Shown here piece after piece: positions 11,910-57,167 of a DNA stretch of 64,000 bases. Below the pieces are notes generated by a model that did not search any database, was not told the DNA's origin, and saw nothing but the letters and a program-made list of their open reading frames with translations. Position 1 is the stretch's first letter; the number at the start of each line of letters is the position of its first letter. Origin of the DNA: Rickettsia endosymbiont of Cardiosporidium cionae (GTDB lineage: Bacteria; Pseudomonadota; Alphaproteobacteria; Rickettsiales; Rickettsiaceae); contig NZ_JADAQY010000002.1 of the NCBI RefSeq assembly GCF_015476335.1, forward strand, positions 29,716 to 93,715, read 5' to 3'. The translations under genes and the position numbers were made by a program.

Positions 11910-13065
11910 TCTTCGTAATGATAAAATAATTAACTTTACTTACAAACTAAACTAGCATAATTTGTGCCAAATCCTTTTTATTTTAATTGTAAATTATCTA
12001 GTTATCATTCAAATTTGGAGCTGATGGAGCTGATGGAGCTGATGGAGCTGATGGAGCTGATGGAGCTGATGGAGCTGATGGAGCTGATGGAGCTGATGGA
12101 GCTGATGGAGCTGATGCATCAAAATTAAAGTTAGAATTAAATATTCTAATATTTAATTGATCTAACTGTTTTTAGTTATAATATTTAGTAAATTCTATAT
12201 GTATTCTGTATGCAGAAATTGATAATTATAAGTTAAGCTAAAGAAGATGAATTTGTAATAATATGTAAATCTGTGTATGCTAGAGATACAAATACTGCAA
12301 TAAACATAAAAAATTGTTAGATTGTGAATTGAAAAAATAAGAGAGCTATCAATCTCTGCTAACTAGAAGATGTATAATGCTTTTTAAAGGTGAGTATTTG
12401 TTGAAGATGTTATAAAATCTACACTTTAGTACAGAAAAAACTCATCATGAATATTTAGGTGTTTTATTTGTTCTAAGAGAATAATATCAAGTAATTTGCT
12501 TGGAATGACAAGAAAGACAAAAAGTAAAAGGAATAAATTTGGCATAAACATATCTAACTAATTAATGAATAATAGTTAGAGTAGTTGGAGTAATTATGTA
12601 TTAAGACAAATAATTCTAGGAATAATATTAATAAACTATTTTTAAGTTGAACAAAATATATATATGACCTAATTAGTAACTGTTAAGAAGTAGTAGATAC
12701 CTATATAGGACTTGCTGTATAAAATCAGATTACTTAGTGCATTAGTTTAGTTTTAGTTTTTTTATGTTATTCTATCAATAACATTGTAGTAACCATCATT
12801 ATACTAACAAGATATATAATTATACATTCATATAATTGATATAATTGAAAATTTCACATCTTAAATGAGTAGCATTTTTTGTTATTAGATGCCATTCAAT
12901 AATATTGATTTTAAGTTTTACTTAAAGATAATTGGTATATTTGTTTATTATTGAAAAATTTAAAATTAATGATTAGTATAGTGCAGGTAAATGCTATTTG
13001 AAAATCCTATACCGTAAGATTGTGAGATTTTTAATGAAAATTATTCAATATAATTGCTAAGGATT
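11910..13065. other. 1.1-kb gene-free gap with minisatellite
   Basis: The region lies between fliK (leftward) and kdsB (rightward), so it should hold both promoters. Apart from the 99-bp minisatellite at 12017-12115 it is AT-rich and stop-dense in all frames, with no recognisable protein or RNA. It is the longest gene-free interval of the window and may be decayed coding sequence. Confidence 0.6.
12017..12115. repeat. Minisatellite, 11 perfect copies of GGAGCTGAT
   Basis: Eleven identical head-to-tail 9-bp units with no mismatch fill these 99 bases. The unit is far richer in G+C than its surroundings. Two plus-strand frames are open through it (Gly-Ala-Asp and Met-Glu-Leu repeats) and one minus-strand frame reads His-Gln-Leu repeats from an ATG at 12119 to a TGA at 12009. 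The Gly-Ala-Asp frame is closed by a TAG at 11999 and has no start codon, and none of the frames continues into a recognisable protein. The lack of divergence between copies points to recent expansion. Confidence 0.97.
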
Positions 13066-14012: not shown

Positions 14013-15131
14013 ATGTATTTGCTCTGTGCTGTAATCCAAAATTTATTCATATGTTTAGTATATGTACTGGGTTTGTTTGATGCTTTTGCTATGGAAAGCA
14101 GAATTAAGGATATTGCATCTGTTGAAGGAGTAAGAGATAATTTGCTTGTTGGTCATGGGTTGGTAGTTGGGTTAAATGGTACTGGAGATAATCTCAAAAA
14201 TGCAGTATTTACAGAAAAAGGACTCTCTGATTTCTTGGATCGCCTTGGGGTGAATGTTCAAGGTTCAAATATCAATACAAAAAATATAGCCGCCGTTATA
14301 GTAACTGCAAATTTACCACCATTTGCAACTCAGGGTAATAAAATAGATATTAAAGTTAGCGCTCTTGGGGATGCAAAAAGTCTTAAGGGAGGAGTTTTGT
14401 TAGCCACCACATTGCTAGGGGCTGATGGAAAAGTCTATGCAGTAGCTCAAGGTACGGTTTCTATTTCAGATTTTGTTAGCATCTCTCCAGAAATAAAAAC
14501 TAGAAATCGTGCTATAGAAACTAATGGTTATATTCAGGCTGGCGCTATTGTTGAAAATGAAATAAATTTTCAGTTTAATGATATGAAAAATATTAGATTA
14601 TCTTTACATTCTCCAGATTTTAGTACTTCTTATAAAATTGCTAATGCCATTAATAACAACATTAAAGGCAATATAGCTATGGCTACTGATTCAGCTACAG
14701 TTAAGATAACTGTACCAGAGTATCGTTACCAAAATTTGGTTGACTTAATATCAGAAATAGAATCTATATCTGTAGTACCTGATTATAAAGCAAAAATTGT
14801 GATAAATGAATCTACTGGTACCATTGTTATAGGCGATAAGGTACATATCAGACCAGTAGCAATAGCGCAAGGTAATTTGATAGTGAATGTTATCCAAAAT
14901 CAATATTATGACTCTTTACCTTTTACTACTTCTCAAGAAGATTTAGAAAATATCAATAATTTAGTGGATCAAAGGAGAGGGAGCAAAATGCATAATCTAG
15001 AAGGAGGAGCAAAGCTTAGTGATTTGGTTACAGGATTAAATAAGTTAGGCGTCTGGCCAAGAGATATTATAAATATATTACATAATATTAAACTCGTGGG
15101 AGCGTTAGATGCTGTAATAGAGGTGAGATGA
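14013..15131 (+). CDS. flgI: Flagellar P-ring protein FlgI
   Basis: FlgI builds the periplasmic P ring around the rod. A hydrophobic N-terminal segment (about residues 5-28, ending before MESRIKDIASVEG) is a Sec signal peptide, as normal for FlgI. The conserved start of the mature protein, RIKDIASVEGVRDNLLVGHG, is followed by LVVGLNGTGD, SALGDAKSLKGGVLLATTL, and a C-terminal region with the typical end ALDAVIEVR. At 372 aa it has the expected length. A FlgJ-like rod protein lies 120 bases downstream. Confidence 0.96.
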   Translation: MYLLCAVIQNLFICLVYVLGLFDAFAMESRIKDIASVEGVRDNLLVGHGLVVGLNGTGDNLKNAVFTEKGLSDFLDRLGVNVQGSNINTKNIAAVIVTANLPPFATQGNKIDIKVSALGDAKSLKGGVLLATTLLGADGKVYAVAQGTVSISDFVSISPEIKTRNRAIETNGYIQAGAIVENEINFQFNDMKNIRLSLHSPDFSTSYKIANAINNNIKGNIAMATDSATVKITVPEYRYQNLVDLISEIESISVVPDYKAKIVINESTGTIVIGDKVHIRPVAIAQGNLIVNVIQNQYYDSLPFTTSQEDLENINNLVDQRRGSKMHNLEGGAKLSDLVTGLNKLGVWPRDIINILHNIKLVGALDAVIEVR

Positions 15132-15251: not shown

Positions 15252-15584
15252 ATGTATATATCTGGAATATATGATGCAGTGCAAATTGATAATGGTAATA
15301 ATGCTTTACATATGATAAAGCCCTCTGGAGTGAGCTTTAAAAAGCTTTTGAATGAAACATCTAGCACATGTGCTCAGAGTCAGTGTAATCACTTGAGTGA
15401 TATAGATAATTTTAATAGATATCTTACACGTATATTGTGGAAAAATATGTTGGAAACCTCAGGTGTAAATTTTTCTGATCAGATAATAGTGAACGCGATG
15501 ATTATAGATAGCATTACTTCGGTAGTAGCTGAAAAATGTGATATAGAGTATGTAGAATCATCTCCCAATTCTATACATCACTAA
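15252..15584 (+). CDS. Small FlgJ-like rod-binding protein (probable)
   Basis: The 110-residue protein is too divergent for certain assignment. Its position directly after flgI, its length and the central segment FNRYLTRILWKNMLETSG resemble the N-terminal rod-binding domain of FlgJ, which in alphaproteobacteria often occurs alone, without the muramidase domain, next to flgI. No signal peptide is visible, as expected for a type III export substrate. If correct it caps or chaperones the growing rod in the periplasm, and cell-wall hydrolysis must come from another enzyme. A hairpin follows the stop codon. Confidence 0.5.
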   Translation: MYISGIYDAVQIDNGNNALHMIKPSGVSFKKLLNETSSTCAQSQCNHLSDIDNFNRYLTRILWKNMLETSGVNFSDQIIVNAMIIDSITSVVAEKCDIEYVESSPNSIHH

Positions 15585-15781: not shown

Positions 15782-16489
15782 ATGAATTTGTTTGCTTTCC
15801 TTAAATCCAGAATTGGTGATAAAAATAGTAACAGTAATATTAGTAATACTGGTTTAGATCAGAGTAAAGATTGTTATACAAGACAGTATGAATATATGTT
15901 GATTCAACGTAATTGGCTTGTGTTATTGGTGTTTATATTATTACTTACTACCGCTATTGGTACAGTAGCAGTTATATACATGAATCATTTTAGAAAATTT
16001 GAGCCATTCGTAGTGCAAATAGATAATACTACAGGTAACCTCAGTATAGTGAATCCATTAGAATCGTCTTTACTTTCAGGTAACGATGCATTATCTCAAT
16101 ATTTTATCAAAAAATATATTATAGCAAGAGAAACTTATAACCCCGTGGATTTTACAACTCTTGCTAGACACACAATTAGACTGTTCTCTACAACAGATGT
16201 ATATAGACAATATTGGGGGTATATTCAAAATGAAGATAACGATTTAGCGCTTAAATACAATACACAAAATACTACGTATTTAACAATAAAATCATGGTCT
16301 AAAATTAAAGATGATAGGTATATTGTCAGATTTTCTATACATGAAACTACAGGATCTATGATGGTTTTTAATAAAATTGTAGTAGTAGAATTCACATACA
16401 CTGCAGTTGAGCTTACAGAACAAGATAAAGATATTAATCCAGTAGGGTTTGTTGTGACATCTTATAGAGTTGATGATGATTATAGTTAG
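15782..16489 (+). CDS. virB8: Type IV secretion protein VirB8
   Basis: VirB8 is a bitopic inner-membrane assembly factor of the P-type T4SS. The protein has a cytoplasmic N-terminus of about 45 residues, one transmembrane helix (about 46-68, WLVLLVFILLLTTAIGTVAV) and a periplasmic NTF2-like domain. Family features include YFIKKYIIARETYNP near 115 and a terminal VVTSYRVDDD (family pattern GF.V.sYR.d). At 235 aa it is normal in length. It opens the operon virB8-virB9-virB10-virB11-virD4 and overlaps the start of virB9 by 17 bases, suggesting coupled translation. Confidence 0.93.
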   Translation: MNLFAFLKSRIGDKNSNSNISNTGLDQSKDCYTRQYEYMLIQRNWLVLLVFILLLTTAIGTVAVIYMNHFRKFEPFVVQIDNTTGNLSIVNPLESSLLSGNDALSQYFIKKYIIARETYNPVDFTTLARHTIRLFSTTDVYRQYWGYIQNEDNDLALKYNTQNTTYLTIKSWSKIKDDRYIVRFSIHETTGSMMVFNKIVVVEFTYTAVELTEQDKDINPVGFVVTSYRVDDDYS

Positions 16490-16943
16490 AACCGTAATAT
16501 TAATTTTGATTCTTAATCTTAGAATTATAACATGTTTGAGTTATCAAGCGGTATCCGTTACAAAAAATACAGATATTACAGTCGATTACAGAATTAAAAA
16601 ATATATATATAATCAAGATGAAGTCTATCTTATAGTTCTTCATAGCGGATTTCAATCTTATATTGAATTTGAAAAAAATGAATTTGTTAAAACTCTTACT
16701 TTAGGTGATACTTATTCTTGGAAAATTACTCCACTGGATAATAAGTTATTTATTAAGGCCTTAGAAAAATACATAAAGACAAATATGATTGTTATTACTA
16801 ATAAAAGGACTTATCAGTTTGATCTTGTGTCAAAAGAATTGGTTGAAGGCAGAGAACAAGATTTAGTTTATGTAATAAGATTCTCTTATCATGAAAAGAA
16901 GAAAAAATCCTATATTAATAATTCTAAATCGATAGAAAAATAA
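16473..16943 (+). CDS. virB9: Short VirB9 homologue lacking the C-terminal domain
   Basis: The approximately 156-residue protein has a signal-peptide-like N-terminus (MMIIVRTVILILILNLRIIT) and then a good match to the N-terminal domain of VirB9: DYRIKKYIYNQDEVYLIV, GFQSYIEFE, TLGDTYSWKITPLDNKLFIK, TNMIVITNKRTYQFDL, and VIRFSYHEKKKK. Full VirB9 proteins are about 260-290 residues and end in a beta-sandwich that binds VirB7 and VirB10 at the outer membrane; that domain is absent. virB10 starts 3 bases after the stop, so there is no room for a frameshifted remainder. Truncated second copies of VirB9 are known in the Rickettsiales rvh system; a full-length copy should exist elsewhere. ATG codons at 16473 and 16476 are both possible starts. 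Confidence 0.85.
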   Translation: MMIIVRTVILILILNLRIITCLSYQAVSVTKNTDITVDYRIKKYIYNQDEVYLIVLHSGFQSYIEFEKNEFVKTLTLGDTYSWKITPLDNKLFIKALEKYIKTNMIVITNKRTYQFDLVSKELVEGREQDLVYVIRFSYHEKKKKSYINNSKSIEK

Positions 16944-16946
16944 AAT

Positions 16947-18518
16947 ATGGAGAATAAGCCAAACAACAATAATGACGAAATTGCTAATACACATAATGTG
17001 GCCCATATTGAAGAAGAATTATCAAAAGTATCTAGTTTCAATAAAAAAAATTTTACGTTATTAGTATTTATATCATTATTTGCGGTTACTTATATATATT
17101 ATTTTTTTATTAGAGATGATGATACAGAAGATGGCAATGAAAAATTTCAACTACCTAAAATCACAGTGAAAGCTAATGATGGTCATAGAGGATACATCCC
17201 TGAAATTCCACAATTGCCTGTATTACAGGATAGTAATGATATGACGTTGGTAAATAATTCAGATTTTATGAATAAGACAGCATCTGATGATCAAATTCAA
17301 TCTGAAGATAATAATACAAATAATCTGGAATCAGACATAAAAGTAGCAAATTTTGAACCAAGTAAAGATATACAAGCTCTTCAAGAAAAACAAGATATTG
17401 TTGATGATAGTTTAAATGAAAAAAAGATTGATAATCCTCCTGTAGTATGGAAATCAACTAATACTCCTCCTAATTTCTTTCCAGCTACTGAGAATCTAGA
17501 TGCAGAAAAAATTACTAGAAGACGAGAACAAAAAAGGACTTCTCCTATTACTCTAATTAGTGGTGCTTTACCCCAAAAATCTCTTCAAGAACAAGAAGTT
17601 AGTAATAACTTTCAGAAGAGAGGTAACTTAAATTTAGTAATGGCTAAAGGTAAATTGATTGAAGCAGTAGTAGAAAGTGCTATAAATACTGATTTTGGAG
17701 GTGAAATTAAAGCCGTAATAAGCAGGGATATATACTCAGAAATAGGCAAAAATATATTAATTCCTAAAGGATCTAAGCTATTTGGGCAATATACCACTAA
17801 TGTGGATGAATTATATGGAAGAGTTGCAGTCGTATGGAGTAGGATAGACTTAACAAATGGTTATAGTATCAATTTTGATGGTACTAATATAGATAATTTA
17901 GGATTAAAGGGAACTCAGGGTAACATAGATTTAAAAATAAAAGAAAGATTAACAAATGCTGTTCTACTCTCTACTTTTGACATTGGAGTTGCATCAATTC
18001 TAGATAAAATCATTAAACCTATACAAAATACAAATGTATCTACCAAATTACAAACTAATGTTGCCAATATTAGAGTAATTACTAACAATATAGTATTAGA
18101 TAGCAACCTTAATGATAATGAAAAAATAAATAAAATTTGCAATGATGCTCTAGGAGCATTTGGTACTAATAATGTAAGTTCAAGTGCATATTCTACTATC
18201 AGTAGTAAATGCTCTACGCTGAGAAATGATACTACAGCTAATAGCTCAGGTAAATTAACTTCATTGATTTCAACTGTTAACACATCCTTGGATAGTTTGT
18301 TAAAGGTTAATAATACTAATACTACAGAAACTCAAGTACAAAAATCTTCTAAAAAGGCATTTAAAGAATTAACTAATACCGCAAGAGAGTTAATATTCAA
18401 TGAACCAACTTGGAAAACTACAGTTAGTATTCACCAAGGTACTATGATAAAAGTCTATGTTAATAAAGATTATTTGTTTCCATCTGATATAATTATTCAA
18501 TCTAAATTAATGCCATGA
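16947..18518 (+). CDS. virB10: Type IV secretion protein VirB10
   Basis: VirB10 spans the envelope and gates the T4SS outer-membrane pore. Order: cytoplasmic N-terminus, transmembrane helix (about 35-55, FTLLVFISLFAVTYIYYFFI), an acidic Asn/Asp-rich periplasmic linker (about 60-220), and the TrbI-type C-terminal domain (about 230-523). That domain carries GKLIEAVVESAINTD, GSKLFGQY, and a final TTVSIHQGTMIKVYVNKDYLFP. Between about residues 350 and 465 an insert rich in Asn, Ser and Thr sits where the paired antenna helices lie in other VirB10 proteins. It starts 3 bases after virB9 and overlaps virB11 by four bases (ATGA). Confidence 0.93.
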   Translation: MENKPNNNNDEIANTHNVAHIEEELSKVSSFNKKNFTLLVFISLFAVTYIYYFFIRDDDTEDGNEKFQLPKITVKANDGHRGYIPEIPQLPVLQDSNDMTLVNNSDFMNKTASDDQIQSEDNNTNNLESDIKVANFEPSKDIQALQEKQDIVDDSLNEKKIDNPPVVWKSTNTPPNFFPATENLDAEKITRRREQKRTSPITLISGALPQKSLQEQEVSNNFQKRGNLNLVMAKGKLIEAVVESAINTDFGGEIKAVISRDIYSEIGKNILIPKGSKLFGQYTTNVDELYGRVAVVWSRIDLTNGYSINFDGTNIDNLGLKGTQGNIDLKIKERLTNAVLLSTFDIGVASILDKIIKPIQNTNVSTKLQTNVANIRVITNNIVLDSNLNDNEKINKICNDALGAFGTNNVSSSAYSTISSKCSTLRNDTTANSSGKLTSLISTVNTSLDSLLKVNNTNTTETQVQKSSKKAFKELTNTARELIFNEPTWKTTVSIHQGTMIKVYVNKDYLFPSDIIIQSKLMP

Positions 18519-19486
18519 GCTTAAAAGCTTTAGAAACTTATTTATTACCATTTCATAAAATTTTTTCTGAAGAAGGAGTAAACGAAATCATGATCAATAA
18601 GCCTTGCGAAGTTTGGATTGAAAAATATGGTAATCAAAGATTAGAACATATTTCTGATTTGGATTTAGAACATTTGTTAGGTTTAGGTAGACTGATAGCT
18701 CAATCAACTGAACAAATGATTTCTCAACAAAAGCCCTTATTATCTGCTACATTACCTAATGGATATAGAATACAAATAGTTTTTCCACCTACTTGCGAAC
18801 CAGGTGTCGTAGCATTATCAATAAGAAAAAGTGGCAGTTTAAATGTATGCTTAGATACATATGCAAATACAGGAGCATTTGATCATGTAAGCACCGAGCC
18901 TAGTAGTGATAAAAATCGTGAAATTTTAGATAATTATCTAAAAGAACATAATATTTTGATGTTTTTAAAACATGCAGTGCTCACTAAAAAAAATATATTG
19001 ATTAGTGGAGGTACTTCTACTGGTAAAACTACTTTTGGTAATGCTATGCTTTCTGCTATCCCAAGTGATGAAAGATTGATTACTATAGAAGATACTAGAG
19101 AAATAATACTAAATAACCATCCTAATAAACTGCATCTCTTAGTCTCTAAAGGAGAACAGGGATTGGCACAAGTTATTACACAGGATTTAATAGAAGCATG
19201 CCTAAGATTAAGACCAGATAGAATTATAGTAGGAGAATTAAGGGGAGCAGAGGCATTTAGTTTTTTAAGAGCAGTCAATACTGGCCACCCAGGTTCAATT
19301 GCTACATTGCATGCAGATACACCAATTATGGCAATAGAGCAATTAAAGTTGATGATTATACAAGCAGGATTAGGAATCCCTGTTGATGAGATTAAAAACT
19401 ATATCAACTCAGTAATAGATATAATTGTACAGCTTAAAAGAGGAAAAGCTGGTAAAAGATATGTATCTGAAATATTATTTCAGTGA
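18515..19486 (+). CDS. virB11: Type IV secretion ATPase VirB11
   Basis: VirB11 is the hexameric traffic ATPase at the cytoplasmic base of the T4SS. The N-terminal domain (about 1-130) precedes Walker A GGTSTGKT at residues 165-172, the Asp box ITIEDTREI, Walker B region RPDRIIVGELRG, and the His box TGHPGSIATLHAD. Its 323 residues are typical. The ATG overlaps the virB10 stop by four bases, so translation is probably coupled. All catalytic motifs are intact. Confidence 0.96.
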   Translation: MSLKALETYLLPFHKIFSEEGVNEIMINKPCEVWIEKYGNQRLEHISDLDLEHLLGLGRLIAQSTEQMISQQKPLLSATLPNGYRIQIVFPPTCEPGVVALSIRKSGSLNVCLDTYANTGAFDHVSTEPSSDKNREILDNYLKEHNILMFLKHAVLTKKNILISGGTSTGKTTFGNAMLSAIPSDERLITIEDTREIILNNHPNKLHLLVSKGEQGLAQVITQDLIEACLRLRPDRIIVGELRGAEAFSFLRAVNTGHPGSIATLHADTPIMAIEQLKLMIIQAGLGIPVDEIKNYINSVIDIIVQLKRGKAGKRYVSEILFQ

Positions 19487-19526
19487 TTTAACTTTATATA
19501 TATAATGTAATATATTTTGTAACACT

Positions 19527-21224
19527 ATGTTTGATGGATTTATATCTATAATATTTCATATTATCATTATAATTTTTTGTTTGTTTTTCAATGCCAATAT
19601 TATCATTTTAACGGTACAATCCTATGATTTTCTCGGATTAGAATGGAATGTGTTAAAACTTAGTTATAGTTGGATATATTGGCTGTTTATCAATTGGGGT
19701 AATATCGATTTAAATTTTTTAGATTATATCAAAATTAAGTTGTCTTTGGCTATATTCTTACCACTAATATTAGAAATACTAATATATATAAAAAAGTTTG
19801 ATTTTATTATAAACTTAGAATATTTAAAACCGCAGGAGGATGTATATGGATCTGCAAAATGGGCTAATTCATCAGATATTAAACAGGCATCCTTAAGATG
19901 TGAAAAAGGAGTTTTACTTGGTAGAGATAGTAAAGGATATTTTGTCGCAGGTGGATATCAACATTCTTTATTATTTGCTCCTACTGGTTCTGGTAAAGGT
20001 GTAGGTTTTGTAATACCTAATTTATTATTTTGGGAAGATTCTGTCATAGTGCATGATATAAAATTAGAGAATTATGAATTAACTAGTGGATGGAGAAAAA
20101 AAATGGGGCAAGAAATATTTGTTTGGGAACCTTCTAACCCTGATGGTATAACACATTGTTATAATCCGTTAGATTGGATTAGTAAAAAACCTGGACAAAT
20201 GGTAGATGATGTTCAAAAAATTGCAAATTTAATTATGCCAGAAAAAGAATTCTGGACTAACGAAGCAAGAAGCTTATTTCTAGGAGTAGTGTTATATCTA
20301 TTATCTGATGATACTAAAGAAAAATCCTTTGGAGAAGTGGTAAGAACTATGAGAAGTGATGATGTTGCATATACTTTGACGGTAGCACTTGATACGTTAG
20401 GGGAGGTAATTCACCCTGTAGGTTATATGAATATAGCAGCCTTTTTACAAAAAGCAGAGAAAGAAAGATCTGGAGTAATATCTACAATGAATTCCTCATT
20501 AGAATTATGGGCTAATCCGTTGATTGATAAAGCTACAGCAAGCTCAGATTTTAATCTGCAAGAAATGAAGTCTAAAAAAATTACAGTGTATGTAGGATTA
20601 ACTCCTGATAATATTAATAGATTACAGAAGCTAATGCAGGTATTTTATCAACAAGCTGCAGAATTTTTAACACGTAAAATACCTAATAAAACAACAGAAC
20701 CTTATGGGGTAATGTTTATGATGGATGAGTTTCCTACTCTGGGGAAAATGGATCAATTTAAAACGGGCATAGCTTATTTTAGAGGATATAATGTAAGGTT
20801 ATTTTTAATAGTACAAGATACACAACAATTAAAAGGGATATACGAAGAATCAGGTATGAATTCATTTTTATCTAATACCACTTATCGTATCACATTTGCA
20901 GCTAATAACTATGAAACTGCTACATTAATATCTCAATTATGTGGCAATAAAACAGTAGAGCAAGAGTCATATAATAGATCTACATTTATTGATATAAATT
21001 TTGCTAACAAAACAAAAAATATTTCTAAAGTACAAAGAGCTTTACTTTTGCCACAGGAAGTGATTCAATTACCGAAAGATGAGCAGATTCTGCTTATAGA
21101 ATCATCTCCTCCTATTAAATCAAAAAAAATCTTGTATTATCAGGATAAAAATTTTACAAAAAAATTGCTACCTAAGACTTTCGTACCAAACCAGATTTTA
21201 GAAAACAATATGATTATTGAGTAA
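19527..21224 (+). CDS. virD4: Type IV secretion coupling protein VirD4
   Basis: VirD4 recruits substrates to the T4SS. Two or three hydrophobic segments in the first 95 residues anchor it. The soluble domain begins with YGSAKWANSSDI (usual VirD4 pattern G.A.wa...e), then Walker A APTGSGKG at 151-158, NLLFWEDSVIVHDIKLE, and Walker B MFMMDEFPTLGKMD near 396. The 565-residue length fits the family. It lies 40 bases after virB11; a Ppx/GppA gene follows 31 bases downstream. Confidence 0.96.
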   Translation: MFDGFISIIFHIIIIIFCLFFNANIIILTVQSYDFLGLEWNVLKLSYSWIYWLFINWGNIDLNFLDYIKIKLSLAIFLPLILEILIYIKKFDFIINLEYLKPQEDVYGSAKWANSSDIKQASLRCEKGVLLGRDSKGYFVAGGYQHSLLFAPTGSGKGVGFVIPNLLFWEDSVIVHDIKLENYELTSGWRKKMGQEIFVWEPSNPDGITHCYNPLDWISKKPGQMVDDVQKIANLIMPEKEFWTNEARSLFLGVVLYLLSDDTKEKSFGEVVRTMRSDDVAYTLTVALDTLGEVIHPVGYMNIAAFLQKAEKERSGVISTMNSSLELWANPLIDKATASSDFNLQEMKSKKITVYVGLTPDNINRLQKLMQVFYQQAAEFLTRKIPNKTTEPYGVMFMMDEFPTLGKMDQFKTGIAYFRGYNVRLFLIVQDTQQLKGIYEESGMNSFLSNTTYRITFAANNYETATLISQLCGNKTVEQESYNRSTFIDINFANKTKNISKVQRALLLPQEVIQLPKDEQILLIESSPPIKSKKILYYQDKNFTKKLLPKTFVPNQILENNMIIE

Positions 21225-26373: not shown

Positions 26374-26599
26374 ATAATGTCAATTGATTTTCATATCTTA
26401 ATTAATATTGATTTTTTAATCGCACTGGCAATATACAACTAATACCTAAATTATAAAGGATATTTTCTGCAACGATAACAAAAAAAGTTATATAGTGCAA
26501 ATTAATAGGATTAATTTTTATGTAAATTACAATTTGGCATAATTTATGCTCAATATTCATTTGCATTATATTTTAAAAATACAAATACAATTAACTATT

Positions 26600-29245
26600 A
26601 TGACATCAGCAACAGATGTAGCAGTTAACTCGCTAGCACCTAATAATAAACATCTTACTATACTTAGTCGTGAGTTGCATGCATCAAAGCAGGTAGGGTT
26701 TAAAGAACTAATCCCACATTTTGTTACTGATCCAGGAGGTGGTGCAGCAGTAACAGTGAAGCAAGATCTTCATAAGCAAGGACCATTAGTTGATTCAAAT
26801 AATAAAATGCATATGGGAATAAATGGAGAAGGGCTTTTTGTAGTTTCTGATGAAGGGGGTAAAGTATCTTATACTAGAAATGGGAGTTTTGATAAAAATC
26901 TTAAGGGAGAGTTGCATAATACAGATGGATATAAGTTGTTAGGAGTAAAGTCAAATGAAAATGGTAACGGAGTTGTAAATGTACAAGATGTAAATAACCT
27001 TGAACCAATAGATCTCTCTGGGGTTGGTTTTAGTTCTCCAGAAAAAACAAAGAGTATTGCTGTATCTGAACTGCAACTTAATTCTCAGTCCGGCATATTG
27101 CAAGCATCTGATATTAGAATGCATTTAAAGAATCACCCTCAAGATGAATTCATTATATCTTATTCTGAAAATCCTAATATAAATATTGGTGATCAAATAA
27201 TATTAAAAACAGATTCAGGGCCAGAGATAGTATTAGAATATGGAGGTGTTGCAAATTCATATTCAGTATCAGAGCGGTTTAAGGTATTAGATGTTAGTGA
27301 TATCAATTCTCCATTTGATAGTAAATATTTAGACAAAACGCTAAAGATTACGTTAGTTGGTGGTACCAGCCAGAGTTATGAGTTTATAGTAGGAAATTTA
27401 AATAGTGTGGAAGATAATAGATTTAATAGTATTAAAACTCTAGCAGATAAGATTAATGCTGTACATGATTTGACAGCAGTTATAAGAAATAACATTTTAT
27501 ATATAGCTGCGGAGGACCCTAATCTTGAAGTAAAATTTCAAGGAGATATAAAGAATGATTTAGGATTATCTGATATACCAGCTTCTACTAATAGGTTTAA
27601 TTCTTTTAAATCTTTAGAAAAATTAGTTGATAAATTACCTGATAGCTCAACTGGAACAAAATTGAATGCAGGTAATCTTATAATATCTCCGAATTCTGCA
27701 GAAATGTCGTTGTCTCTCTTAGGCAATAGTATAGAAAATAATAAAATATTTTCTGCTAGGATAGGAAATGGAACAGATTTAGGAAGAGCCACGGTAAGAA
27801 TAGATACCAATACTCATGGTTTGCAAATAGGAGATGTTGTTAATATTTCTGGTATGAATATTAACAATATACCAGATGGTAAATATTTTGTTACTAATGT
27901 AGATCCAATGGGTTTTGAAATATCTGTTATTAGTAATGATCCTAAAGCACTTGGAGGAACTACTACAGCTACAGGATTCCCTATAACTACTCAAAATTTG
28001 TCTAATCTTAATGCTGTATGGAACCGGGTCCAGTCTGACCGTGGATTATTAGAACCAGATTTTTCAATTTCAGAAATTGATACTGACATTACTGATGCTA
28101 CTAATCAAGTTATGAAGATTCATAAAATAGGGCACGGACTTACAGATGGTGACATAATTTATCTTAAGGATTTTGGTGTTAGAAAGATTGCTGAATCTGG
28201 AGCCTCATCTCCTACAACACACGATGTTTCAATACCAGATGCTTACTATAAAATCACACGAATTGATAATGATAATTTTTCTATATCATATAGTACAGAA
28301 ATCATTAATAGCTCAGTAATCAATTCAGGTGATTTCTCATATAAGAAAATAGGTAATACCACTGCTGGTATAGAAAATATTACACTATCATCTAGTGTAG
28401 TGGCAACTGTTATAACAAGAGATAAAGATGAAATACTAAGATATTTTGGTATAGAAGGTAATAATATGGTGACAGCTGCTTATGATGTTACCGATCCTAA
28501 TTCTAATTTATCATCTAATAAATTTCCTCAATCTAGTATTTTAAGTTCAAATGTTACATTATTTGATAGTTTAGGAAATGAATTTCAGTTGAATTTTAAA
28601 TTTGCAAAACTTGCTACTAATAGGTGGGCTGTTGAAATTTTTGATGTTCGTGAAAAAGGTGATCTGCAGTATTTGGATTCAGGTATATTGAACTTTAACA
28701 GTGATGGAAAATTAGATTTATCATCTGTAAAAAAATTTAATTCCCCTATTAGCATTAATCATCATAACGGTGATAGTAATATACAAGAAGTTGGTATTGA
28801 TTTTTTATCGAAATCACAAATACAACAAGTAAATTTAGGGGATGAAAAATTTTTAGGTAATGTACAATTAAAAGCTGGAGGAAGGAAGTATGGTAACATT
28901 GATGATATTATAATAAGTGAGGGTACATTATATGGTATGTTTGATAATGGAGATACTAGGATGTTATTTGATATACCAATCGCAACTTTTGATGATATAA
29001 ATGCGCTAAATACTGTGGAAGGCAATAGTTATACGCGAACTCCAGATGCTGGTAAGATCAAAATAAGATTCAAGGGGAATAATATAGGTACAATTAAGAG
29101 TGGGAAATTAGAACAATCTAATGTTGATACAAATAAGTTTATAATAGAATTACAGAAAGGGTCTATTTGGCAGCAGATTGCTCTAAGGGTATTATCTGAA
29201 CTCATGAAAAATGACAAATCTCTACCACAAATATTATTTGGTTAA
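26600..29245 (+). CDS. flgE: Flagellar hook protein FlgE, unusually long
   Basis: The N-terminus (NSLAPNNKHLTILSRELHASKQVGFKE) fits the axial-protein pattern, followed by MGINGEGLFVVSDEGGKVSYTRNGSFD, the conserved hook/rod D1 strand. The C-terminus contains GTIKSGKLEQSNVD, the FlgE/FlgG signature. At about 881 residues it is twice a typical FlgE (about 400). The extra length is in the middle and includes two related segments, about residues 399-443 (HGLQIGDVVNISG, IPDGKYFVTNV) and 505-565 (HGLTDGDIIYLKDFG, IPDAYYKITRIDNDNFSIS). A further domain, about 630-720, has the usual hook fold (TLFDSLGNEFQLNFKF). The ATG at 26600 is chosen; an ATG at 26546 would add 18 residues. Strictly speaking a long FlgE, not FlgG or FlgF. 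Confidence 0.88.
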   Translation: MTSATDVAVNSLAPNNKHLTILSRELHASKQVGFKELIPHFVTDPGGGAAVTVKQDLHKQGPLVDSNNKMHMGINGEGLFVVSDEGGKVSYTRNGSFDKNLKGELHNTDGYKLLGVKSNENGNGVVNVQDVNNLEPIDLSGVGFSSPEKTKSIAVSELQLNSQSGILQASDIRMHLKNHPQDEFIISYSENPNINIGDQIILKTDSGPEIVLEYGGVANSYSVSERFKVLDVSDINSPFDSKYLDKTLKITLVGGTSQSYEFIVGNLNSVEDNRFNSIKTLADKINAVHDLTAVIRNNILYIAAEDPNLEVKFQGDIKNDLGLSDIPASTNRFNSFKSLEKLVDKLPDSSTGTKLNAGNLIISPNSAEMSLSLLGNSIENNKIFSARIGNGTDLGRATVRIDTNTHGLQIGDVVNISGMNINNIPDGKYFVTNVDPMGFEISVISNDPKALGGTTTATGFPITTQNLSNLNAVWNRVQSDRGLLEPDFSISEIDTDITDATNQVMKIHKIGHGLTDGDIIYLKDFGVRKIAESGASSPTTHDVSIPDAYYKITRIDNDNFSISYSTEIINSSVINSGDFSYKKIGNTTAGIENITLSSSVVATVITRDKDEILRYFGIEGNNMVTAAYDVTDPNSNLSSNKFPQSSILSSNVTLFDSLGNEFQLNFKFAKLATNRWAVEIFDVREKGDLQYLDSGILNFNSDGKLDLSSVKKFNSPISINHHNGDSNIQEVGIDFLSKSQIQQVNLGDEKFLGNVQLKAGGRKYGNIDDIIISEGTLYGMFDNGDTRMLFDIPIATFDDINALNTVEGNSYTRTPDAGKIKIRFKGNNIGTIKSGKLEQSNVDTNKFIIELQKGSIWQQIALRVLSELMKNDKSLPQILFG

Positions 29246-55417: not shown

Positions 55418-55601
55418 ATTTTTGTTATCCATATCTAATATCTGATTACAAATTACTTGTATTTTTATTACACATAGAGCAAATTTTTAATAAACTACTT
55501 AATTACAAATTGATCATGATTATCGTTATTGGTATGCTCTGCGTCGCGAAGATGTTGATGATCCATGTGGTAATTATTAAAGTTTAGATTTTTTGTTTGT
55601 T

Positions 55602-56180
55602 ATGTGTATTTTTGTAAGACTAAAGCTTGCTATTGAATTTGCATTCATGCTGTGTTTTATATTGGCTGTTGCAGGGCAGTATAGCGCCTGCACTGTAGTT
55701 GCAGCAGTGCGTGGTGGAGTAAAAACTACTCAAAATGTACCCTGTAATAAGAATACCGTAAAGGGTGTAAATACATCTAGTTTAATCAAGCAATATCTGG
55801 AATTTCTTTCTTTAAGACATAAAACCCTGAGTGAAAATATAGCTAATTTAAACACTCCAAATTACAAAGCGAAAGATGTATCTATGGCCGATAATACTGG
55901 GAATCTAGTGAAAGCAGCACCTAAAAGATATGTATTTTGTTTATCTACAACTTCTGCCAAGCATATAGGGTCAAAGAATATGGGGCCAAATGGTATCAAT
56001 GGTATCCATTATAAGATAAATAAAATAAAAAATTCCTACGAGACTAAGCCAAATGGTAATAATGTATCCATGAATCAGCAGATGAGTGAGATATCACAAA
56101 ATCAACAAAGCTATAATGTTGCTATTAGAGCCTACTCTGCATTAAATAATTTGTTTCTATCAGTATTAGGAGGTAAGTAA
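55602..56180 (+). CDS. flgB: Flagellar proximal rod protein FlgB with N-terminal extension
   Basis: The core from about residue 64 (SSLIKQYLEFLSLRHKTLSE, NIANLNTPNYKAKDVSM) is the FlgB N-terminal axial motif and the end (YNVAIRAYSALNNLFLSVLGG) fits the C-terminal helix. Unlike typical FlgB proteins of about 130 residues, this one has about 60 extra N-terminal residues: a basic start (MCIFVRLKLA), a hydrophobic segment (about residues 9-28) and a VAGQYSAC end, resembling a signal peptide or lipobox. No ATG lies between it and the core; only a GTG at 55707. flgC follows directly. Start at the ATG 55602 rather than TTG 55593. Confidence 0.8.
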   Translation: MCIFVRLKLAIEFAFMLCFILAVAGQYSACTVVAAVRGGVKTTQNVPCNKNTVKGVNTSSLIKQYLEFLSLRHKTLSENIANLNTPNYKAKDVSMADNTGNLVKAAPKRYVFCLSTTSAKHIGSKNMGPNGINGIHYKINKIKNSYETKPNGNNVSMNQQMSEISQNQQSYNVAIRAYSALNNLFLSVLGGK

Positions 56181-56666
56181 ATGAAGTTTTATAAGAAATT
56201 TGTTTTTTTTGTTGTTATGACATTAACCAGCATCCCCTATGTTACTTTTGCAAAACAAGATTATCTAAAGCATGCAATAGAGTTGGCTGTGTACGGAAAT
56301 ATTGTTCAGCTTACGAGAATTAAAATTGCTACAGAAAATTTAGTAAATAGTGACTCTACATCTGGTGGATTGAATAAAAATCCTTATTCTAGAAGAAGAT
56401 TATTGGTATTTAATCAATATAATAAAAAAAAGAGTTTCAATATTCCTAAAATTAAAAACATTGCTTTTGACAAGTCACCATTTATTTTAAAATTCGATCC
56501 GAGTCATCCAGAAGCGAACGCTAACGGATATGTTGCATATCCGAATGTTATACTGCAAATTGAGAAAGCTGATATAAGTGAAGCTCAGAAAAGTTATGAG
56601 GCGAATTTATTTGTCATGGAAATTTCAAATTCTTTGATTAGTAAAACCATTGAGTTGATAAGATGA
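56181..56666 (+). CDS. flgC: Flagellar rod protein FlgC with apparent signal peptide
   Basis: The core KHAIELAVYGNIVQLTRIKIATENLVNSDST (about residues 30-60) and the conserved SHPEANANGYVAYPNV near 110-125 identify FlgC; NPYSRRRLLVF also fits. The first 28 residues (MKFYKKFVFFVVMTLTSIPY, then VTFAKQ) look like a complete Sec signal peptide with VTFA cleavage, which ordinary FlgC proteins lack. It starts right after the flgB stop, and no alternative start lies between the signal and the core. At 161 aa it is slightly longer than the usual 135-140, the difference being this extension. Confidence 0.85.
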   Translation: MKFYKKFVFFVVMTLTSIPYVTFAKQDYLKHAIELAVYGNIVQLTRIKIATENLVNSDSTSGGLNKNPYSRRRLLVFNQYNKKKSFNIPKIKNIAFDKSPFILKFDPSHPEANANGYVAYPNVILQIEKADISEAQKSYEANLFVMEISNSLISKTIELIR

Positions 56667-56741: not shown

Positions 56742-57167
56742 ATGGACATTCAGTTGATACCAAGTAGCTGTAATTATTTTCAGAACGTAAATAATATGTA
56801 TAGCACTTATTTTCAAAATCTTAATAATTTATGTCATGTTTATTCACACGACCCAGTTAAATTCCATAACATGGTTAATGCAGAATTTAATAAAATAAAT
56901 AATTCAAAAATTCCTACTTCTACTGTTACATCGTCTTTACATTGTACTCATGATATTGCTAGCAATAATGACCATAACATACTTGGTGATTTAAAGCGCA
57001 TATTACAGTCACAAGAGCAGGCTGCCGCTAGCTTAAGTAATGAAAATACTTCAGTTATCGATGTTATGACAACAGCAAATGAGGCAACCCATACTCTTAA
57101 AACTGTGGTGGAAATAAAAAATAAGTTAGTGGATTCTCTAGATAAAGTCATGAATATGTCAATATAA
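56742..57167 (+). CDS. fliE: Flagellar hook-basal body complex protein FliE
   Basis: FliE joins the MS ring to the rod. The C-terminal half (about 85-141) matches the family: NENTSVIDVMTTANEATHTL, KTVVEIKNKLVDSLDKVMNMSI (family ends with RNKL..AY..I..M.V). The N-terminal half is Asn-rich and unique. The 141-residue protein has no signal peptide. It is third in flgB-flgC-fliE. Confidence 0.85.
   Translation: MDIQLIPSSCNYFQNVNNMYSTYFQNLNNLCHVYSHDPVKFHNMVNAEFNKINNSKIPTSTVTSSLHCTHDIASNNDHNILGDLKRILQSQEQAAASLSNENTSVIDVMTTANEATHTLKTVVEIKNKLVDSLDKVMNMSI

Follow-up and report, generated by a model that had tools for sequence, protein, structure and literature searches.

The textbook account of flagellar assembly is one of strictly inside-out export, in which every axial protein passes through the central channel. 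In Salmonella, the rod is known to be built on FliPQR within the MS ring in the order FliE, FlgB, FlgC, FlgF, FlgG (PMC12403130), and FlgB, FlgC and FlgF are type III-exported (PMC9307174, PMC12403130). Phenylalanine 45 (F45) of Salmonella FlgB is required for secretion via docking on FlhB, and F49 of FlgC serves assembly (PMC9307174). The Sec-exported proteins FlgI, FlgH and FlgA of the P and L rings, together with FliP, whose signal peptide is cleaved, arrive at the flagellum by way of the periplasm or the membrane; they form rings or the gate or act as chaperones, and no Sec-routed axial (rod) protein is among them (PMC12403130). Early flagellar substrates carry a hydrophobic gate-opening signal that is very short, uncleaved and found on rod and hook subunits generally (PMC8983047). 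Here we describe the flgB-flgC-fliE operon in a 64,000-nucleotide stretch of DNA (the window) from a Rickettsia endosymbiont of Cardiosporidium cionae, in which FlgB and FlgC begin with extensions that resemble Sec signal peptides.

The genome from which the window comes (G000; 1.05 Mb, 95% complete) belongs to a Rickettsiales family coded f1 here. Judged from sequence comparisons, FlgB, FlgC and FlgF, with FlgJ in sister lineages, are probably cleavable Sec precursors that would join the rod from the periplasm, with FliE, FlgG, the hook and the filament leaving by the type III route. These rod proteins have in common with their Salmonella counterparts a homologous core, FliE as the first layer and a type III exporter, and flgB-flgC lies next to fliE here; they differ in the Sec-type peptide ahead of the canonical start and in FlgB having mostly lost the docking phenylalanine. 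The peptides are of the same targeting kind as those of the Sec-exported ring proteins and of FliP. Like the gate-opening signal they are hydrophobic, N-terminal and placed on rod or hook subunits, but they are organized as signal peptides and occur on FlgB, FlgC, FlgF and FlgJ only. Our searches of open papers turned up no description of rod proteins with Sec signals, although most subscription papers were outside our coverage and novelty is thus not proven. The extensions, their distribution, the FlgC start codons, the placement of the cleavage motif, the selection acting on the extensions and the intact exporter were established directly.

A first-pass annotation of the window, made without database searches, had named the two frames FlgB and FlgC and had suggested Sec-signal-like extensions on both. 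The frames and their coordinates (Table 1) were correct, and profile matches support the products. FlgB scored 68.4 bits against TIGR01396, above the cut-off of 59.05, and was taken as a member of the family. FlgC aligned with TIGR01395 over residues 32-161 at 100.5 bits, 1.6 bits short of the curated cut-off, and with its match to the PDB FlgC chain 7bin_V it was counted as a FlgC. The core of FlgB contains the motif SENIANLNTPNYKAKDV, and the gate-recognition phenylalanine equivalent to Salmonella F45 is absent, the local reading being NYKAKDVSMADNTGN. By a crude rule (positive n-region, uncharged hydrophobic core, small residues at -3 and -1), the FlgC extension MKFYKKFVFFVVMTLTSIPYVTFA has the form of a Sec/signal peptidase I (SPase I) precursor ending in VTFA, as had been noticed, and its start is backed by a perfect Shine-Dalgarno (SD) sequence. 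A type III-exported rod protein would lack a signal peptide, and its start methionine would precede the core by a few residues; FlgB and FlgC of the window do not have this form. FlgF is encoded on a different contig of G000 and starts MHKKYFCVFWLVVTLFCCDLKIVLSNNNSFYIG, a weaker signal peptide than those of FlgC and FlgB; the adjoining FlgG starts MDMLLSIAS and has no extension.

We searched 262 Rickettsiales genomes and read the FlgC N-terminus in 57 of them, after excluding one doubtful FlgC-like protein (G089). A scan of genome contigs with a single-protein query returned no relatives; an alignment-based scan did find them. The FlgC extension was present in 35 of the 57 genomes (f1 10/10, f10 17/17, f17 3/3, f7 1/1, f27 2/2 and f22 2/5), three of which (G169, G038 and G076) were assigned by eye and 32 flagged by the rule. 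FlgC in the other 22 had no extension, and in families f4, f5, f6, f9, f12, f16, f18, f19, f23, f24 and f29 it starts normally, a few residues before the profile. Alphaproteobacterial FlgC found by the contig scan outside Rickettsiaceae and f22 had normal starts wherever they were readable. FlgB was extended in 25 genomes (f1 6/10, f17 1/2, f27 2/2 and f10 16/17, the remaining f10 protein being cut by a contig end), some of them assigned by eye only. The extension on two further proteins goes beyond the first-pass annotation: it was clear on FlgF in 12 genomes (f1 10/10, f27 2/4), with four genomes of f10 genus g23 ambiguous, and FlgJ, the rod cap, had a signal-peptide-like N-terminus in seven, namely all four f27 proteins (L344, L346, L329 and L330) and f10 genomes G126, G132 and G165 (L328, L342 and L355). 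FliE was never signal-bearing in the compared genomes, in line with what had been said of the window FliE, nor was FlgG (about 38 genomes checked) or FlgE (about 19). We dropped the idea that FlgJ was lost in signal-bearing lineages (PF10135: f1 0/10, f10 genus g23 0/4); its absence reflects at least in part low sensitivity, because an alignment-based model recovered FlgJ in g23, G017 and G248. A metagenome-assembled genome record titled Rickettsia typhi (CAMCRO010000014.1, L188) holds flagellar rod genes and is probably misnamed.

The extensions have almost no sequence in common, but they have a common organization of n-region, hydrophobic core and AxA-type site, as in the FlgC examples MKRYFLLILVFMAALSGAMQSFA|DNLKQ, MRKLYHLILLILFPNILFA|ADPLL and MKALIIFILLTLSNGIAFA|GDDLS. 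Examples from FlgF are MKEFGKIFLYLLFYLGNAHA|NNASYISLS and MRFMKIAAIVSFASVIPATGAFA|DNSLYVLA; where canonical FlgF begins MDNSxYIxLS (normally MDNSIYIxLS), the predicted mature protein begins NNSTYITLS or DNSLYVLA. When the position of small residues at -1 and -3, 2-6 residues before the profile, was compared with shuffled extensions, the cleavage motif coincided with the canonical start in 28 of 35 FlgC (13.2 expected) and 10 of 12 FlgF (4.3 expected). Together with the recurrence in every f1 FlgC and in several sister families, this placement indicates that the extensions are real. In close species pairs the extensions diverge faster than the cores, mostly conservatively, and pooled synonymous versus non-synonymous differences gave odds of 2.6 for FlgC (p=3e-4) and 5.1 for FlgB (p=2e-8); the extensions are fast-evolving yet under purifying selection. 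The core rod residues are under strong purifying selection, with a ratio of non-synonymous to synonymous rates (dN/dS) of about 0.03-0.1.

The same observations bear on the possibility that the extensions are uncleaved transmembrane anchors, which would keep rod subunits tethered to the inner membrane before they are assembled. Some (those on FlgF of G198, G224 and G060) are long and strongly hydrophobic, and f1 FlgB has 17-30 residues between site and core, as an anchor might. Small -3/-1 residues at the canonical start, however, are far commoner than in shuffles, and, to judge from solved rods, an uncleaved hydrophobic helix of 20-25 residues at the N-terminal end of D0 would probably lie within or beside the rod channel. 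The first-pass annotation had placed Sec export of the proximal rod, N-terminal membrane anchoring and regulated assembly side by side. Of these three, Sec export is the one we favor; anchoring is disfavored, and in our judgment improbable, because the canonical N-terminus is where the cleavage motif is found and little besides the motif and hydrophobicity is conserved.

We inspected the start codons of the FlgC N-termini individually and rejected long open frames alone as evidence, since stop-to-stop lengths mislead. The window has three AGGAGG-type SD sequences with an ATG, against 0.21 expected, and the flgC start is one of them. The annotation had stated that no alternative start lies between the extension and the FlgC core. 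This holds from M13 to the core; M13 itself is an in-frame ATG (56217) inside the extension, and it has no SD. FlgB has an alternative in-frame GTG at 55707, which makes its start in the window less certain, and an in-frame TTG upstream at 55593. Across genomes, an SD precedes 10 of the 35 FlgC precursor starts, compared with 19 of 451 control positions. If the proteins began at the core and the extension were untranslated, the ATG at M13 and the GTG in FlgB could serve as starts, and FlgF of f10 genus g23 does have a canonical MDNS start after its extension. Most of the 35 extended FlgC, however, have a signal-like extension and no start codon at the canonical place, so that other Rickettsiales do not generally start at an internal codon there. 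The same is true of most FlgF extensions, and with the SD before the long FlgC start and the purifying selection within the extension, a gene-start artefact appears very unlikely.

The type III export genes of G000 are present and intact (FlhA 7.3e-237, FliP 1.8e-78, FlhB 2.8e-95), as are FlhA, FlhB and FliP in nearly all signal-bearing genomes; in G098 and G114 they have decayed. In these two f10 genomes (L090, L091) FlgC, FlhA, FliP and FlgF are fragmentary or broken by stops, a lineage caught losing its flagellum. Of 25 signal-bearing FlgB, 22 have lost the F45 equivalent, whereas 26 of about 29 signal-free FlgB retain it. These counts follow a reclassification by eye, in which G120, G145 and G174 were moved to the signal-bearing class and three sequences missed by the pattern were added. 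Before this, the script had found F in 3 of 22 signal-bearing proteins versus 23 of 29 others (p=3.5e-6). The contrast repeats inside f1 and inside f17. An intact exporter would also suit extensions that are strengthened hydrophobic type III signals, as in Salmonella FlgD, with export still of type III. A FlgD-type signal, however, amounts to a few small non-polar residues among the first ten positions and is not organized into n-, h- and c-regions with a cleavage motif. Moreover, the extension never occurs on FliE, FlgG or FlgE, which are likewise type III substrates, and FlgB with a peptide is mostly without the FlhB docking residue. We therefore give this explanation little credence.

Flagellin (PF00669) was not detected in G000, G215, G218, G236, G239 and G184 despite hook, rod and exporter genes, and the remaining f1 flagellins mostly score very weakly; the undetected flagellins may be divergent or lost. 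The first five of these genomes, and the flagellar pseudogenes of G098 and G114, would fit a decaying or re-used machine whose rod proteins are secreted to the periplasm or surface without a motile flagellum. The extension is equally present, however, where flagellin and exporter are clear (f10, f17 and f22), the rod cores are under strong purifying selection, and some ciliate Rickettsiaceae swim by flagella (PMC3914857), so that decay or re-use seems an unlikely account of the extensions.

For Sec-delivered rod proteins we infer the following route. FlgB, FlgC and FlgF, and FlgJ in sister lineages, would be synthesized as precursors whose signal peptides, of the classical cleavable Sec type, direct them through SecYEG across the inner membrane. 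SPase I would then cut where the start methionine usually lies, so that the periplasmic rod subunits have their normal length. FliE would exit through the flagellar type III exporter and seat on FliPQR, and the periplasmic FlgB, FlgC and FlgF would join it from the outer side, in the MS-ring collar with its open top. FlgG of the distal rod, the hook and the filament would still pass through the type III channel.

Several points weigh against this route. Addition from outside within the MS-ring collar is unproven. None of the FlgB and FlgF precursor starts examined for an SD has one. The signal of the G000 FlgF is weak, with charged residues preceding the site. The crude rule is unspecific, flagging 11 of 48 window open reading frames (ORFs), several of them membrane proteins, and therefore it is the comparative evidence that carries the signal-peptide claim. 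Three signal-bearing FlgB (G126, G031 and G070) keep the phenylalanine, and its loss is confounded by ancestry, with about two of three independent pairs in the expected direction, which is not significant. FlgE of f10, which is signal-free, also has no equivalent phenylalanine. Because phylogenetic independence is insufficient and f10 FlgE shows the same absence, we regard the loss of F45 as supporting and not decisive.

On the FlhA tree, a branch (94/84) has the signal-bearing FlgC of f1, f7, f17, f10 and f27 all to one side, and f22 represents a second origin. That the FlgC peptide arose only once, f22 included, was rejected (approximately unbiased test, p 2.4e-5), on the assumption that FlhA and FlgC have a common history. 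The fewest changes were two for FlgC, four for FlgB, two for FlgF and two for FlgJ. The shift to Sec export may have begun with FlgC, followed by FlgB and FlgF and in places by FlgJ. We lean, by a modest degree, toward the wider view that a whole bacterial group builds its proximal rod from Sec-delivered periplasmic subunits on type III-exported FliE, with type III handling only FliE, FlgG, hook and filament, and with the peptides gained repeatedly and separately on FlgC, FlgB, FlgF and FlgJ. If true, the export role of the channel would be separable from its assembly role, and a proximal rod could be built from a periplasmic pool. These lineages would be a natural resource for distinguishing residues that act in export alone, such as F45 of FlgB, from those that act in assembly, and they bear on the persistence of the flagellum in aquatic relatives of Rickettsia.

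Table 1. Flagellar features of the window (positions counted from its first nucleotide).
Feature	Position	Strand	Remarks
flgB	55602-56180		first gene of the operon
FlgB signal-peptide-like N-terminus MCIFVRLKLAIEFAFMLCFILAVA (24 aa)	55602..55673	+	continues GQYSA after predicted site
FlgB linker (about 30 aa) and rod core	55674..56177	+	TIGR01396 6.9e-19, residues 58-179
Shine-Dalgarno AGGAGG	56168..56173	+	7 nt before flgC ATG at 56181
flgC	56181-56666		second gene of the operon
FlgC signal peptide MKFYKKFVFFVVMTLTSIPYVTFA (24 aa), predicted SPase I site VTFA|KQ	56181..56252	+	mature side KQDYLKH
Mature FlgC (rod protein)	56253..56663	+	TIGR01395 9.1e-29; PDB 7bin_V 3.2e-13
FliE, no signal peptide	56742-57167	+	third gene of the operon; protein 56742..57164; PF02049 7.3e-9
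Hook protein FlgE-like (899 aa)	26546..29245	+	start MTSATDVAVNS of canonical type, no signal peptide (control)
FlgI (P ring), normal Sec signal peptide MYLLCAVIQNLFICLVYVLGLFDAFA	14013..15131	+	identified by eye; missed by the crude rule

A 110-residue ORF (15252-15584) lies directly after flgI, a frequent place of FlgJ. By eye it resembled FlgJ, but it scored just 2.3 bits against the FlgJ model and this identification was rejected. A few hundred bases past flgI and this ORF is a run of type IV secretion genes (15782-21224), which by eye are VirB8-, VirB9-, VirB10-, VirB11- and VirD4-like. A 54-residue ORF at 11964-12128 has a short in-frame tandem repeat (LMELMELME...), which is probably a microsatellite.
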